A DNA stretch of 35,990 bases from assembly GCF_002843425.1 (NCBI RefSeq), contig NZ_NKXO01000034.1, forward strand, positions 1 through 35,990, in the 5' to 3' direction. The DNA is from Raineya orbicola (GTDB taxonomy: Bacteria > Bacteroidota > Bacteroidia > Cytophagales > Thermonemataceae). Below the pieces are notes generated by a model. That model searched no databases. It was not told the DNA's origin and was given only the letters and a program-made list of their open reading frames with translations. Each line of letters starts with the position of its first letter. Within the stretch, counting starts at the first letter, position 1. Positions 18,678 to 32,309 of the stretch are shown one piece after another. The position numbers and the translations under genes are program-made.

Positions 18678-21140
18678 TCAAACTTTGATACCCATTAGCA
18701 AAATATCGTCTCTTTGCATAGTTCCTCTTTGATACATATCCAAGAAGTTTTCTAAATGCTTTTGTTGTTCGCTCATAGTGAGGTTACAATTTTGCGAGAG
18801 TAGATATTTGAATTTAGCCTCGCCTAATTTTATTCTTTCTGCATTATTCTGGTCTGTGAAGCCGTCGCTACCTAAATAAAGCAAACTACCTGATTTGAGT
18901 CTAAGCTCTTGATTAGTAAAAGGAACATTTTCGTTTTGGAAACCGCCAATAGAGCGTCTGTCGCCTTTGAGCATAAAAACTTGGTCGTGTCCAGCTTCTA
19001 TGTAATAAAGCGGTCTTTTAGCCCCTGCATAAGTGAGTTTGGTGAAGCCATCGGGTTGTTTTTCCAAAACACACACCGATAAATCCATTCCATATTGATT
19101 TTCCGTTTTGTCTTGTTGGAGGGTAGAACGGATTTCTTCATCCAATTTTTTTAGAATTTCAGCAGGTTCAGTTATCTGATATTGTTTTACTACTTTGGTA
19201 AGCATTGTGCTGCCAATAATACTCATCAAGGCACCGGGTACGCCGTGTCCGGTGCAATCTACGGTAGCTACAATCACCTTGTTATCAACTTGTTCTACCC
19301 AGTAAAAATCGCCAGAAACTACATCACGGGGGCGGAAAATGAGGAAATATTCCCCCAACAGGGCTTTCATTTTATCTTCGTGAGGCAAAACAGCCTGCTG
19401 TATAGTCATAGCGGCATTGATACTTTTTTCAATTTTCTCGTTTTGTTCAGCAAGAATAGCATTCTTTTCGGCAATGGCATCTCTTTGAGCCATAATTTCC
19501 TCTTGGTTCTGGCGAAGTTCTTCGTTTTGAGCGGCGATTTGGTTAGATTGCTCCTGAATAGCAAGGGATTGTTCTTGAATTTCTTTGGACTGCTTTTCAA
19601 TTTCTTTAGCTTGGCGTTCAATAGCATTTTTCTGTTTGCGTATGCGTATGTAAGTGTAGATGCTGTATGCCAAACCAATAATTGCCAAAGCAATGATAAT
19701 CATTAGGAGTTGGTTGATGAGTTCATTGGCACGGGCTTCTTTTTCGGCAGCTTCTTTTTGCTGTTTAGCCACTTTTTCTTTTTCTCTTACTTCGGCGAGT
19801 TCTTTTTCTTTAAGTACTTTTTCTTTTTCTTGGGCATCTATCTTGATAGCTTGGAGTTCTTTTTCACGTTGTAATAGTTCATTTTCTTGTCTTTGTTTTT
19901 CGGCTTCGGCTTGTTGTTTGGTAATCAAGAGAGCTTGCTCAATTCTTTTCCGTTCCAATTCTTGGTTCAAGGCACGTGTACGGCTAATTTCACTTTCTTT
20001 GCGAGCTAAATCCGCTTCTTGGCGAGCTTTTTCTTTTTCCAAAGCGAGCTGTTTTACGGTCATTTCTTGCTTTTCTTTTTCAGCAATATCTTGTTTGAGT
20101 TCATTTTCCTTTTTTTCCACATTGATTTGCTCTTCAAGCAGTTTTTGCTGATTTAATGCTTCACGTTGCCTGATTTTTTCACGTGTATCTTGGTAGAGTT
20201 TATTATACTTTTGATATTGAGCAAAATCCTTTTCTTTCTGATAGATTTGAGCCAAAATATTGTAGCTTACTTCTAAAATATTATCACCATTAGGTAAATT
20301 TTGAGCAATGGAAATAGCTTTTTCAGTTTGGGCGATAGCTACTTTACTTTTACCCGAAACGTAATTGTTGGCGGCTAAATAATTGGAAAGATTAGCCACT
20401 TCATATTCATTTTTCTGGTTTTCAGCAAGTTTATAGGCTTTTTGGAAATACTCTCCTGCATCATCAAATTTTCCAATGTAGCTATATGTAACACCCAAGT
20501 TGGTGTACATAGTAAGTTGTTGCTGAGGACGCAGACGGCTCAATTTGCCATAAATAGCGAGAGCTTCCATAAAATGGTCCATAGATTTTTGTGTATTTCC
20601 GAGCTGTCGGTACAAAAATCCTAAATTGTTGTGGGTGTCAGCAACTGCCATCTCATCACCTAGTTCTTTATTAAGTTGCAAACACTCCAAAGTGTAGTTT
20701 AAGGCATCTTGATTTTTATCAGCCGCTTCGCAAATTTCAGCAAGTTTGTGAAGCGTATTTACTTCATCTTTTTTACGATTTTCTTTCTTTTGCAAACGCA
20801 AAATTTTATCATAGGTTTTTTGAGCATTGTTGTAATCTTTCAGAGCTATTTGCGAATTTCCAATAGCATTCAAAATGGCGATTTTTGCCGAATTGCTTTC
20901 GTTATTTTGCTCTTGCAACTGATAAACTTGCTCAAAATATTCAATAGCCTTTTTATGAGCATTTTGTCTTTGATAGGTAAGCCCCAGACGCTCTAAAATA
21001 TTGATACGTTCAGGCATATCTTTGGCTTTGTTCAGCTCGGCAAGTAGCACACTGATACTACTTTGGCTTTGAGCTTTTACTATCATATTGAAAGCCAGCA
21101 AACAAAGAAATAAACAAAGAAGTTTTTTAACAGGTGTCAT
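18678..21140 (-). CDS. TPR / coiled-coil / transmembrane SpoIIE-type serine phosphatase
   Basis: 820 residues. A signal peptide (1-23, ending VKAQ) leads into about six TPR-like repeats (about 30-315, e.g. HNNLGFLYRQLGN and YTNLGVTYSYIGKFDDAGEY). A very long Glu/Lys/Gln-rich coiled coil follows (about 320-473), then one membrane segment (476-497), a second coiled coil (500-572) and a PP2C-type SpoIIE domain (about 590-820). Metal-binding acids are visible in RDVVSGDFYW (D611), VDCTGHGVPG (627-636), GSDGFTDQ and RDDILLMGI. The layout predicts a receptor with sensor outside and phosphatase inside, acting on an unknown anti-anti-sigma-like partner. It starts 12 bases after a TonB-dependent receptor gene on the same strand, so receptor and phosphatase are probably cotranscribed. 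Confidence 0.9.
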   Translation of the reverse strand: MTPVKKLLCLFLCLLAFNMIVKAQSQSSISVLLAELNKAKDMPERINILERLGLTYQRQNAHKKAIEYFEQVYQLQEQNNESNSAKIAILNAIGNSQIALKDYNNAQKTYDKILRLQKKENRKKDEVNTLHKLAEICEAADKNQDALNYTLECLQLNKELGDEMAVADTHNNLGFLYRQLGNTQKSMDHFMEALAIYGKLSRLRPQQQLTMYTNLGVTYSYIGKFDDAGEYFQKAYKLAENQKNEYEVANLSNYLAANNYVSGKSKVAIAQTEKAISIAQNLPNGDNILEVSYNILAQIYQKEKDFAQYQKYNKLYQDTREKIRQREALNQQKLLEEQINVEKKENELKQDIAEKEKQEMTVKQLALEKEKARQEADLARKESEISRTRALNQELERKRIEQALLITKQQAEAEKQRQENELLQREKELQAIKIDAQEKEKVLKEKELAEVREKEKVAKQQKEAAEKEARANELINQLLMIIIALAIIGLAYSIYTYIRIRKQKNAIERQAKEIEKQSKEIQEQSLAIQEQSNQIAAQNEELRQNQEEIMAQRDAIAEKNAILAEQNEKIEKSINAAMTIQQAVLPHEDKMKALLGEYFLIFRPRDVVSGDFYWVEQVDNKVIVATVDCTGHGVPGALMSIIGSTMLTKVVKQYQITEPAEILKKLDEEIRSTLQQDKTENQYGMDLSVCVLEKQPDGFTKLTYAGAKRPLYYIEAGHDQVFMLKGDRRSIGGFQNENVPFTNQELRLKSGSLLYLGSDGFTDQNNAERIKLGEAKFKYLLSQNCNLTMSEQQKHLENFLDMYQRGTMQRDDILLMGIKV

Positions 21141-26171: not shown

Positions 26172-26204
26172 AAAAATAAAAATGGTTGCTGTACTGAGCA
26201 ACCA
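26172..26204 (-). terminator. terminator of the ispH - H-NOX - crtZ operon
   Basis: Perfect 8-bp stem TGGTTGCT (26183-26190) with AGCAACCA (26197-26204) and a 6-base loop. On the minus strand it is followed by a T-rich run (complement of 26172-26182). It lies 46 bases after the crtZ stop. Confidence 0.7.
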
Positions 26205-26249: not shown

Positions 26250-26726
26250 TTATTCCAATTCTACCTTTTCGTGTATATCTTTGGGGGCGTATTTTTTAGG
26301 AGCGTACAGGAAACCAAAGGCTTCGGCACCCTCTTTGCCTAAATGTTTATGATGAATCTTGTGAGCTCGTATCATTCGGCGGAGATAGGGGTTCTTAGCG
26401 ATAAATTTAATTTTCACCCTTCTATGTACCAAAATATCGTGAAAAAGTACATAAAAAATACCATATCCTAAAATACCAAAACCAATCCATTTAAGAAAGC
26501 CTACATTCTCAAATTCAAAGCCTGCAACAATAGTAGCTATGGAAGGAATGCTAAAAACGACTGCAAAAAGGTCATTTTTTTCAAAAAAACCTTTGTGGGG
26601 TTTGTGGTGAGACTCGTGCCAACACCACAAAAATCCGTGCATTACGTACTTGTGTGTTGCCCAAGCTACTCCTTCCATTAAAAAAAAAGTGGTAACCATC
26701 AGTATTATGTTGATAAAAAGTTCCAT
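26250..26726 (-). CDS. crtZ: beta-carotene hydroxylase, CrtZ-like
   Basis: Membrane di-iron hydroxylase of the fatty acid hydroxylase superfamily adding 3-hydroxyl groups to beta-ionone rings (zeaxanthin formation). 158 residues, normal for CrtZ. The histidine boxes are all present: HKYVMH at 25-30, HESHH at 37-41, HDILVH at 96-101 and HKIHH at 122-126, set among membrane segments. GFLWCWHESHHKPHKG and FGFLYAPKKY are typical CrtZ sequence. It is the last gene of the ispH - H-NOX - crtZ unit, 12 bases after the H-NOX gene. Other carotenoid genes (crtB, crtI, crtY) are not in the window. Confidence 0.92.
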   Translation of the reverse strand: MELFINIILMVTTFFLMEGVAWATHKYVMHGFLWCWHESHHKPHKGFFEKNDLFAVVFSIPSIATIVAGFEFENVGFLKWIGFGILGYGIFYVLFHDILVHRRVKIKFIAKNPYLRRMIRAHKIHHKHLGKEGAEAFGFLYAPKKYAPKDIHEKVELE

Positions 26727-26738
26727 AGATACAATATT

Positions 26739-27272
26739 TTAATAGTGACTAAAAGTCATAATTGCTTTATTTTCTGAAATTTTTTCAATATGGATTTGAT
26801 TATTGAAATACACATCTAATCCCTTTACAAGAGATATGTATAAATCAAAGAGTTTGCGTTGAGATATATACTCAACTTCGTATTTATTAGGTGCAAGCTC
26901 TTTGTATTCAAAGCGAGGGGGCTGAGCTGTTTCACGTATTTTGCCAAACATTTCGTGAATTTTGGTGAGTTTAAGCACCATATCTTTGGTGGTATTTGCA
27001 CCCTTATAAAAAGCTGAATACAGTTTGGGAGCATACTCAGTACACCAATAGATCCCAAAATCATCGAATAACTGTTGTAAGGAAATTCCCAATATTTCGG
27101 CAGATTTGAAGATGAAATCAATCGTTAAGGCTTCATCAATATCTTCTTTTATCTGTGTAATAAAAGAATGATTTGGCGGTAAATTAAAGGCTTTCAGGCA
27201 TTCTTGCCACTTTTCTCTGCCATATTTATGGATAATAGTTTCTTCAAGACAATAGTGAATAGTACCGTGCAT
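26739..27272 (-). CDS. H-NOX (haem NO/O2-binding) sensor protein, stand-alone
   Basis: 177 residues, a single HNOB domain. The start is set at ATG 27270-27272 (MHGTIHYCLEE), because H-NOX proteins begin MxGxI and the second residue packs on the haem; the frame stays open upstream into ispH but that part is not H-NOX. The proximal haem ligand is H106 in LTKIHEMFGKIR; P118-P119 lie near the haem; the YxSxR propionate-binding motif is Y135-S137-R139. Counting without gaps from these anchors, the place of the distal Tyr of O2-binding H-NOX holds L144, which predicts NO rather than O2 binding. Partners are usually histidine kinases or cyclic-di-GMP enzymes; here the neighbours are ispH (8 bases upstream) and crtZ (12 bases downstream). 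Confidence 0.9.
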   Translation of the reverse strand: MHGTIHYCLEETIIHKYGREKWQECLKAFNLPPNHSFITQIKEDIDEALTIDFIFKSAEILGISLQQLFDDFGIYWCTEYAPKLYSAFYKGANTTKDMVLKLTKIHEMFGKIRETAQPPRFEYKELAPNKYEVEYISQRKLFDLYISLVKGLDVYFNNQIHIEKISENKAIMTFSHY

Positions 27273-27280
27273 AGCTTTTA

Positions 27281-28126
27281 TTAAAAATTTTCTATTATTG
27301 TTTTGACTTGTTCCATTAGCCACATAGGAGTAGAGGTTGCTCCACAAATACCTACGCTTTCGCCTGCATTAAACCATTCTTTTTTTACCTCTTCGGGGCG
27401 AGAAACGAAATAAGTATTAGGATTGGTTTGCTTGCAAACCTCATAAAGCACTTTGCCATTGGAAGATTTTGTTCCTGCTACAAAAATAATTTTATCAAAC
27501 AATTTGGCAAAATCTCGCAATTCGGCGTCGCGGTTAGAAACTTGCCTGCAAATGGTGTCATTGGCTTCTACTTCTATGCCTTGGCTTTCTAATTTTTCCT
27601 TGATTTGGTAAAATTTGTCGGTACTTTTAGTGGTTTGGCTGTAAAGAGTGATTTTGTGAGGTAGTTTATCAAGTTCTAGTTCGTCTATATCTTGAAAAAC
27701 TACGGCTTCGTTATGTGTTTGTCCGAGCAGTCCAATAATTTCGGCGTGTCCGTGTTTGCCGTAAATATAGATTTTCTCATTTTTATCGTAGGAGTTTTTG
27801 ATGCGATTTTGCAGTTTAAGCACCACAGGGCAAGAGGCATCAATGAGTTCCAGATTATTATCAAGAGCAAGCTGATAAGTAGAAGGCGGTTCGCCGTGAG
27901 CCCGTATAAGTACCTTTTCGTTCCGTAAGCCTTTGAGTGTATCGTGATTGATAATTTTCAAGCCTTTGGCTTGAAGGCGTTTTACTTCCTCGTCGTTATG
28001 CACAATATCGCCAAGGCAATAGAGCTTGCCTTCTTGTTCAAGAATTTCTTCTGCCATTTCAATAGCATACACTACGCCAAAGCAGAAACCTGAATGTTTA
28101 TCAATGGTTACGGAAAGGTTGAGCAT
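27281..28126 (-). CDS. ispH: 4-hydroxy-3-methylbut-2-enyl diphosphate reductase (IspH/LytB)
   Basis: Last step of the MEP pathway, reducing HMBPP to IPP and DMAPP with a [4Fe-4S] cluster. 281 residues, normal for the family. The three cluster cysteines are C15 in GFCFGV, C99 in DASCPVV and C193 in TICRQVSNRD. Substrate-binding motifs are present: the HGE loop in IRAHGEPP, KHGHAE, and SSN (TKSSNGK) and the C-terminal GATSTP. It is first in the unit ispH - H-NOX - crtZ with gaps of 8 and 12 bases. IspH clusters are known to be oxygen- and NO-sensitive, which makes the neighbouring NO sensor notable. The upstream gap of 90 bases separates it from the ABC-F gene. Confidence 0.96.
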   Translation of the reverse strand: MLNLSVTIDKHSGFCFGVVYAIEMAEEILEQEGKLYCLGDIVHNDEEVKRLQAKGLKIINHDTLKGLRNEKVLIRAHGEPPSTYQLALDNNLELIDASCPVVLKLQNRIKNSYDKNEKIYIYGKHGHAEIIGLLGQTHNEAVVFQDIDELELDKLPHKITLYSQTTKSTDKFYQIKEKLESQGIEVEANDTICRQVSNRDAELRDFAKLFDKIIFVAGTKSSNGKVLYEVCKQTNPNTYFVSRPEEVKKEWFNAGESVGICGATSTPMWLMEQVKTIIENF

Positions 28127-30134: not shown

Positions 30135-32309
30135 TTAGAAAACTCCCTTACGATTTAGAATCTTATTTTCTTGCACTACTCGGATTTTCCCTTGTTCATT
30201 GAAGTAGAAAGCAGTTTCTACTTCAGCTTGGTAGGTTTCTTGTCCGTTGTGTTGCCAACCGAATACAAGCGGAACAATCGCTAAATCGCCATAAACTTTT
30301 ACTTGCAGATGCTCCATTTTTGCCGAATAATGGATATTTTTTCGGTCTTTGAAAAAATTTTGAAGATTTTTGATGATATGTTCGGGGCTGTGGTCGTAGA
30401 GTTTGATGTACAAATGTACTGAGTCAGCAAAAAGTAACTTCCAATTGTCCCAATCTTGCAAACTTAGGTACTGACAATAAAGCAAGATACTTTTCCGATA
30501 ATGCTCAATTTTTGCTAAGATTGGGTTTTGTTGTTCTTCTGTTACTAACACAGGTTCAGCGAATTGAGTGATTTTTTGAGTTCGTTTGGAAATGTTCAAT
30601 CCTTCTTCAAAAAACCACAACATCGCTTGCTCCAAAAGCCCTTCGGGGGCAGTTTGGGCGAGTTTTTCTTTACCTTTCTGATAAGCCTGTGAAAGCGTTT
30701 TTTCGTTTTTTCGCAGGATGTTTCGGATAGCTTCCTGAAAAGGTTTTAGTTCATAATTAGTACGTCTTTGGAATTTATCAACTTCTTTTTTGACGATACT
30801 CTCCACTTGGATAAATTCTTTTTGCTGATAAAGTAATATACCCGCCATTAGTTTCAAATCTACCCAATAGTTGGGATATTTTTTATCAAAGTTAGGTTGA
30901 AGGCACATCTGCTCTATGCTATCCAAGCATTTTTTCTGATTTTCTTCGTTATTCTGATAGATACACAGCCGAAAATTGAGTAAGATATTATTCAATTCAA
31001 ATCGCCAAAGCAAGTTTGAAATATGTTTTTGTGAAAATATTTTCAAGTTTTCGGCAATTTGAGTGGCTCTATATTCTAGAATATCTGCTTCACTCCAATC
31101 AGGATTTGTTTTGAGTTGCTCGCTGATTTGGCGATGTTCCAAAGCAAAAATCAAGTTTTCCAAAAAATAGCCAAAACTTGTATAGAGCAAATCTTCGTTA
31201 TACTGAAAAAAGCGTTTTTCTTTACGTATCAGCTCTAAAATTCGCTGGCTTTCTTCAAAATCAGCTTTTTTGAGAGTGTCAAAAAAATGTCTAATCAGTA
31301 AGGTAAGACTAAACAAATGCCCAATCGGATTAGCTGTAAAGGTATCATACTTTTCTTTGTAAATATCCATCAAGTCTTCAATTGCCCTAATACGTACATT
31401 AGCTTTTTCATTTATCTGTAAGAAAATCAGTAGCAAATTGTAAAACGAAAAGCCAAAAAATCCATCTTGGGAGTTATTTTTCCAGTATTCATATTCTGCT
31501 TCTTCATATATCTGTTTCAAACGAAAATTTACAAAATCTTTGAAATTGCGATAAATGTCTTCCTCATAAGTTTCTTTCTGAAGCATACTGAGTAATTCGT
31601 TGCGTTTTTTTTGTAGAACCTCATACTCTTTATCGCCTATGCGTTCAAATTCTTGTCTGATTTGCTCAAAGGAAGACTCTTCTGCTGATATAAGCCCATT
31701 TTGAGACTTTTTTTGGTAAAAATAAATCCCCGTTTCAAAAAAATCTCTTAAAATGCCTTTTAGTTGTTTGTAATTGATGAGGTGTGGAGTATGAACGATT
31801 TTGAAACTCGCTAATCTCATTTCTAAATCACATACTTTGCCGTAGAGATAAGTAATTTTATTTTTCTGCACGACTTCCTTGATTTGCTTAAAGAGCTTTT
31901 CAACGAGCAGAAAAAGTCTCTCTTCTAAAAGAAACTCGGCTGTCCAAATCATTTTAAGGGCTTTTTGGGCAAGAAGTTCTTGTTGTAGATTTTCAGGAAG
32001 TTTTTCTATTAGTCCTTTGGGAATATGTTCTGTAAGCGAAAAAATAGTTTCTTGTAACTTTTCTAAAAGTTTTTCAGTGGCATCATCAACCAAATCTGAA
32101 AAATTTTTGGTAAAATCTTTTTGCTTTCCAATCCATTCAAAGGCTTCTTCGGCGGTTTGTTTTTGCTCAATAGTCTGACAAATTTGGGTTAGTAGTTTCT
32201 GTTGCTTGTTTTCTTTGCCATTACTAAGCTGGGTCAGGTCGCCTATGATAGGGGCATAATCTTTTAGAAACTTACACAAATCAAACAGATTTTCAAAGTT
32301 TTGTGTCAT
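30135..32309 (-). CDS. large helical protein of unknown function with a C-terminal NTF2-like domain
   Basis: 724 residues without signal peptide or membrane segments, so probably cytoplasmic. Residues 1-590 are strongly helical and rich in Lys, Glu, Leu and Gln, with no recognised motif; the periodicity might hide TPR-like helical repeats. The last ~125 residues look like an NTF2/SnoaL fold: YCQYLSLQDWDNWKLLF, then HIIKNLQNFFKDRKNIHY, then alternating strands (LQVKVYGDLAIVPLVFGW and AEVETAFYFNEQGKIRVV). NTF2-like domains serve as binding modules or small enzymes, so function cannot be assigned. It precedes the ABC-F gene by 34 bases and is divergent from the plus-strand HTH gene at 32436. Confidence 0.7.
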   Translation of the reverse strand: MTQNFENLFDLCKFLKDYAPIIGDLTQLSNGKENKQQKLLTQICQTIEQKQTAEEAFEWIGKQKDFTKNFSDLVDDATEKLLEKLQETIFSLTEHIPKGLIEKLPENLQQELLAQKALKMIWTAEFLLEERLFLLVEKLFKQIKEVVQKNKITYLYGKVCDLEMRLASFKIVHTPHLINYKQLKGILRDFFETGIYFYQKKSQNGLISAEESSFEQIRQEFERIGDKEYEVLQKKRNELLSMLQKETYEEDIYRNFKDFVNFRLKQIYEEAEYEYWKNNSQDGFFGFSFYNLLLIFLQINEKANVRIRAIEDLMDIYKEKYDTFTANPIGHLFSLTLLIRHFFDTLKKADFEESQRILELIRKEKRFFQYNEDLLYTSFGYFLENLIFALEHRQISEQLKTNPDWSEADILEYRATQIAENLKIFSQKHISNLLWRFELNNILLNFRLCIYQNNEENQKKCLDSIEQMCLQPNFDKKYPNYWVDLKLMAGILLYQQKEFIQVESIVKKEVDKFQRRTNYELKPFQEAIRNILRKNEKTLSQAYQKGKEKLAQTAPEGLLEQAMLWFFEEGLNISKRTQKITQFAEPVLVTEEQQNPILAKIEHYRKSILLYCQYLSLQDWDNWKLLFADSVHLYIKLYDHSPEHIIKNLQNFFKDRKNIHYSAKMEHLQVKVYGDLAIVPLVFGWQHNGQETYQAEVETAFYFNEQGKIRVVQENKILNRKGVF

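Follow-up and report, generated by a model that had tools for sequence, protein, structure and literature searches.

The window, a 35,990-nucleotide stretch of the Raineya orbicola genome (contig NZ_NKXO01000034.1, positions 1 to 35,990), contains three minus-strand genes in the order ispH, H-NOX, and crtZ (Table 1). The spacers are 8 bases between ispH and H-NOX (27273-27280) and 12 bases between H-NOX and crtZ (26727-26738), which confirms the tight spacing from which an earlier note on this DNA proposed an operon. The H-NOX frame begins with an ATG at 27272 and stops at 26739; a longer frame with a TTG start at 27347 overlaps ispH. Outside the trio, beyond crtZ and ispH, lie genes for a TonB-dependent receptor and an ABC-F protein. 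Open reading frames and Pfam matches of the window revealed no kinase or c-di-GMP gene adjoining H-NOX, and a genome search identified the trio copy as the sole H-NOX of the 3.07 Mb genome. An assembly artefact was ruled out by the identical gene order in two more genomes of the genus.

Table 1. Features of the ispH, H-NOX, and crtZ locus, with positions in the window.
Feature	Positions	Strand	Evidence
Carotenoid-linked ispH paralogue (copy A), 281 aa	27281..28126	-	PF02401 (LYTB) 291 bits; NF002187 and TIGR00216 above cut-offs
Stand-alone H-NOX, 177 aa, HNOB domain only	26739..27272	-	PF07700 105.9 bits, residues 2-163
crtZ, beta-carotene hydroxylase family, 158 aa	26250..26726	-	50% identity over 87% of length to Pantoea carotenoid-cluster gene
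Hairpin with T-rich minus-strand tail, plausible trio terminator	26183..26204	-	Stem scan (plus strand only) and sequence reading

Downstream of crtZ, the minus-strand tail of the hairpin reads TTTTTATTTTT. The terminator common to the trio that had been proposed earlier is plausible: the hairpin and its T-rich tail are present, although the terminator scan returned the stem for the plus strand only and not for the minus strand. Two further genes of the window deserve mention. Positions 18678-21140, on the same strand as the trio, encode a TPR protein that carries a SpoIIE phosphatase domain by Pfam, and positions 30135-32309 encode a 724-aa protein for which Pfam and NCBIfam searches at 1e-3 both gave no match; a similar frame adjoins the ABC-F gene in a relative of the same genus (G070).

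The trio IspH contains the cysteine motifs GFCFG, DASCP, and DTICR, whose cysteines we take to be the ligands of the IspH cluster. A second ispH, 58-63% identical to that of the window, occurs in all of the eight genomes sampled from the family except G111, which has a completeness of 81%. The window genome has this second gene as an intact 299-aa frame that also scores above the IspH cut-offs. We rejected the idea that it is broken, as a TGA noted there falls just ahead of the start codon. Because a second intact ispH exists elsewhere in the genome, we take the crtZ-adjoining ispH (copy A) to be the pigment-linked copy, and the other is presumably the housekeeping one.

Neither Pfam nor NCBIfam matched the crtZ product at 1e-3, nor did Pfam at E 1. 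The Pantoea gene that it resembles lies on a plasmid beside crtB, a phytoene desaturase gene, and crtY; the Pantoea record labels this match as a member of the sterol desaturase family, and we presume it to be crtZ. In the window genome, dxs also adjoins a crtI-type desaturase gene, which is another grouping of a precursor gene with a pigment gene. Passages of a report on Echinicola describe carotenoid clusters that include an ispH (PMC8683446). The window ispH copy likewise keeps company with crt genes, but here the partner is crtZ with an H-NOX in between, and those passages make no mention of H-NOX.

The PF07700 match of the middle protein (cut-off 25.5 bits) covers positions 1-162 of the 163-position profile, and no match to NCBIfam was obtained at 1e-3. 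Its best solved-structure match is 1u4h (55 bits), the O2-binding H-NOX of Caldanaerobacter, which serves as the reference for residue roles and numbering. The alignment shows that the axial His106, Pro119, and Y135-x-S137-x-R139 are retained in the window protein; the axial His, the conserved Pro, and YxSxR, presumably the H-NOX heme motif, are also retained in L033 and L034. The distal-pocket tyrosine is missing, with Leu144 aligned at the Tyr140 position of 1u4h. Also unlike 1u4h, the window H-NOX does not belong to a methyl-accepting chemotaxis protein.

According to a review (PMC8738867), H-NOX proteins need the distal tyrosine to bind O2, and those of facultative anaerobes exclude O2. 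With the heme residues retained and the O2-binding tyrosine absent, the window H-NOX is predicted to be an NO sensor, and this assignment is likely. The same review treats bacterial H-NOX proteins paired with histidine kinases or c-di-GMP enzymes (PMC8738867). The window protein shares with these the heme domain, the axial His, the Pro, and YxSxR and, like them, is a small protein in need of a partner; unlike them, it sits inside an ispH-crtZ pair with no such gene adjoining. As HNOB is the only domain found in it, some partner would be required.

We placed this arrangement in context with eight genomes of the family, among which the window genome, G070, G097, and G041 belong to one genus. Copy A of ispH and crtZ lie close together on one strand in all eight genomes; three of these (window, G070, and G097) have H-NOX between the two genes, and five do not. 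H-NOX is therefore not part of the core unit, and on this point the reading in the earlier note is not supported. The outer neighbours in G070 are ABC-F and TonB receptor genes as in the window; in G097 the trio is the same and the outer flanking genes are different. In G041, ispH and crtZ are 7 bases apart with no H-NOX between them, and its only H-NOX, located on another contig, is 25% identical and has genes for a large kinase and a receiver protein as neighbours.

The IspH of G041 is the most distant among the four genus members (84-86% identity, versus 87-93% among the others), which makes a single insertion after its split the simplest history. H-NOX was thus probably added once to a pre-existing ispH-crtZ pair, judging from these comparisons, and loss of H-NOX from the G041 operon would be the alternative history. 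As the three species with the trio belong to one genus, its conservation is shallow. Moreover, the outer ispH-crtZ pair is kept anyway and would carry a middle gene along, so the persistence of the trio argues less strongly for functional coupling than it may seem to.

The identity of H-NOX among the three trio genomes is 79-89%. Between the window and G070, dN/dS is 0.052 for H-NOX, 0.038 for ispH, and 0.041 for crtZ. The other two H-NOX pairs show pN of 0.11-0.14 and pS of 0.81-0.83; synonymous sites are saturated in these pairs, so no dN/dS ratio is given for them. Amino-acid changes are strongly restrained in H-NOX. The G+C content of H-NOX in the window is 0.333, versus 0.394 for ispH and 0.371 for crtZ, a difference that does not date the H-NOX gene.

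Sigma-70 promoter-like sites in the window were found at chance frequency (8 found versus 8.2 expected). Scanning with a consensus that we take to represent Bacteroidota-type promoters gave 8 matches versus 3.06 expected, and 0 of 100 shuffles reached 8. One of these matches lies within ispH (27481-27511) and has a counterpart at the corresponding position of both G097 and G041. Its presence in G041, where H-NOX is lacking, and its absence from G070 mean that it does not track H-NOX, and we rejected it as evidence on this gene.

We then surveyed H-NOX genes more widely. They were found in 135 of 390 genomes sampled from the order and in 27 of 395 sampled from the phylum, the two samples overlapping. 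After deduplication, we compared the surroundings of 172 distinct H-NOX genes; the weakest matches in the order, including the only matches of G236 and G305, were left out, and a fragment beyond the 172 (L221) gave no H-NOX frame. The flanks ranged from 28 bases (contig end) to about 6 kb, with less than 2.5 kb on one side at 22 of the 172 loci. Both ispH and crtZ were present at three loci, those of the window, G070, and G097, and neither gene was detected in the fetched flanks of the remaining 169. Outside the genus, inspection of coordinate tables by eye showed no H-NOX closer than 25 kb to an ispH match, and the smallest distances seen were about 28 kb, in G024 and G040.

A search for ispH outside the family matched 123 of 130 genomes, many only through the other copy or a distant relative. 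We examined the best 50 loci, all of copy A, with roughly 1.5 kb of flank. In eight of these (L098, L099, L101, L104, L105, L106, L108, and L110), which span four families (f15, f20, f5, and f9), crtZ lies on the same strand at most 0.5 kb from ispH; no crtZ was found in the roughly 1.5 kb flank of the other 42, one of which (L097) is cut by a contig end. None of the 50 loci contains H-NOX. The wider conserved unit is ispH-crtZ, and H-NOX is outside this core.

In a FastTree phylogeny of the 172 H-NOX proteins, for which the program warns of long branches, the window protein falls into a set of 16 Cytophagales genes with local support of 95. A kinase was detected within 2.5 kb of H-NOX at only one locus of this set (L035, in G056 of the same family), with less than 2.5 kb of flank on one side at four of the 16 loci. 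At three loci a CHASE3-GAF-type protein is encoded upstream, with Pfam scans for two of them; at three there is a small protein from a recurring cluster that has no above-cut-off match in Pfam; and the remaining neighbours are unrelated. A careful tree of 18 rows united the three operon H-NOX proteins in one clade (100/99) that has no supported sister. The inner branching of the group is not settled in this tree and the larger tree carries the long-branch warning, so neither points to a source of the inserted H-NOX copy.

Across the survey, a kinase lies within 2.5 kb at 79 of 172 H-NOX loci, a lower bound given the rough detection by an iterated home-made profile; six more loci have a receiver domain only, and at seven further loci a neighbour belongs to a kinase-containing cluster. 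The absence of a neighbouring kinase, which the earlier note had considered unusual for H-NOX, is usual for the window's group. Homologues of the G056 kinase occur in all eight family genomes, including three that lack H-NOX. These homologues thus occur both with and without H-NOX and provide neither a co-occurrence signal nor a pointer to a partner acting in trans. Beside the kinase homologue in G025, a search for an H-NOX remnant gave nothing beyond one 13-residue match (E 0.40).

The survey also revealed other recurring neighbours of H-NOX. In another large kinase-less group, mostly of the genus g16, H-NOX genes lie downstream of, and on the same strand as, genes for an ECF sigma factor and an RskA-type anti-sigma protein. 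The anti-sigma gene is directly upstream at 31 of 172 H-NOX genes (for example L167, L176, and L195), with gaps of 7-154 bases, and the sigma gene is present too at 30 of these 31, as assigned by a Pfam check of one member per cluster. The available parts of the literature that we examined contain no description of this pairing. Small proteins of 132-192 aa recur beside kinase-less H-NOX genes in clusters of seven and six members (for example L038:5481-5888, L041:6403-6843, L042:2053-2523, and L222:4564-4980); one gave a SpoIIAA-like match just below the cut-off, and three more that were scanned had no Pfam match over it. They are a possible H-NOX partner family. A globin-cluster gene is directly downstream of H-NOX at three loci (L043, L067, and L068; L068:6573-7028 matches PF00042). 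A FIST-domain gene of about 365-396 aa, identified by scanning one member, is the second gene downstream at 15 loci (including L228:7239-8372), all with a nearby kinase; L149 was left out of this count owing to a spurious 77-aa frame.

Our preferred explanation, in which we place moderate confidence, is that the window H-NOX senses NO, acts on an unlinked partner, and is co-expressed with carotenoid genes. It would be a diffusible, single-domain heme protein from a mostly kinase-less Cytophagales group that entered the space between ispH and crtZ, probably in a single event, in the ancestor shared by three of the four members sampled from the genus. The ispH-crtZ pair would already have been kept together, presumably for carotenoid synthesis, and H-NOX would since then have been transcribed together with both genes. 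Binding of NO to ferrous heme on His106 would yield a five-coordinate complex and a change in shape, and the protein would then act in trans on a signalling partner whose gene lies at another locus, such as a kinase or other regulator. The tie to carotenoids would be one of shared expression, with no dedicated circuit. Running counter to action in trans, the trio is intact in G097 despite different flanks, which functional coupling would also explain.

Such coupling could take the form of a dedicated NO or redox control of isoprenoid or carotenoid flux, which we consider unlikely. NO can inactivate Fe-S enzymes and may damage the IspH cluster; H-NOX would bind or shield IspH, or tune the O2-using CrtZ, and carotenoid output would follow NO. 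The tight spacing in three species, one with different outer flanks, argues for such control, although conservation of ispH-crtZ would in any case bring H-NOX along and only three of the eight genomes with the pair contain H-NOX. The grouping of dxs with a crtI-type gene and the need of a protein with HNOB as its sole domain for a partner are also consistent with it, whereas the fetched flanks of the other 169 H-NOX genes hold neither ispH nor crtZ. The second, intact IspH counts against dedicated control as well and weakens the direct protection of IspH suggested in the earlier note. What stands of the proposed control over isoprenoid flux is the co-location, which is all the positive evidence for it. 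It is quite unlikely that a captured one-domain NO sensor directly gates the pigment-dedicated IspH (or CrtZ), with neither kinase nor c-di-GMP.

The literature examined also bears on dedicated control. In the accessible text of open-licence papers on H-NOX or HNOB with carotenoids or isoprenoids, and on crtZ with ispH in Bacteroidetes, no paper connects the H-NOX proteins of bacteria to genes for carotenoids or isoprenoids, in agreement with the earlier view that the pairing is undescribed; in the accessible parts of PMC6696476, PMC8387589, and PMC7232146, both terms appear only in reference lists or separate contexts. Nor did a statement that NO inactivates IspH appear in the accessible open-licence text, including that of PMC11192765.

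We regard it as decidedly unlikely that H-NOX merely uses the operon as a handy promoter, with a function unrelated to pigments and a neutral position. The neighbours of the 16-gene group do vary by genome (a kinase with a receiver-phosphatase, CHASE3-GAF proteins, or unrelated genes), but the same exact spot has been retained in three species over large synonymous distances. Sequence makes this possibility hard to tell from action on an unlinked partner. A role as an NO or heme buffer (scavenger) is very improbable: the heme domain stands alone and no NorB-type NO reductase was seen among the two COX1-type genes of the genome (an aa3/caa3-type and a fused cbb3-type oxidase), but the retained heme motifs are those of known sensors, and one-for-one scavenging of NO by one small protein would be weak.

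A sensor acting on an unlinked partner thus remains our preferred reading, and a link of H-NOX to pigments is possible. As ispH and crtZ are adjacent without H-NOX in other relatives, H-NOX looks like a latecomer among the pigment genes of one small lineage. The known context of H-NOX consists mainly of kinases and c-di-GMP. If functionally coupled, a conserved H-NOX in a metabolic operon would give NO sensing in bacteria a new output and would connect NO with pigments. Should there be no coupling, our survey still suggests that many H-NOX proteins of the Bacteroidota have no neighbouring kinase, which raises the question of what they act on.
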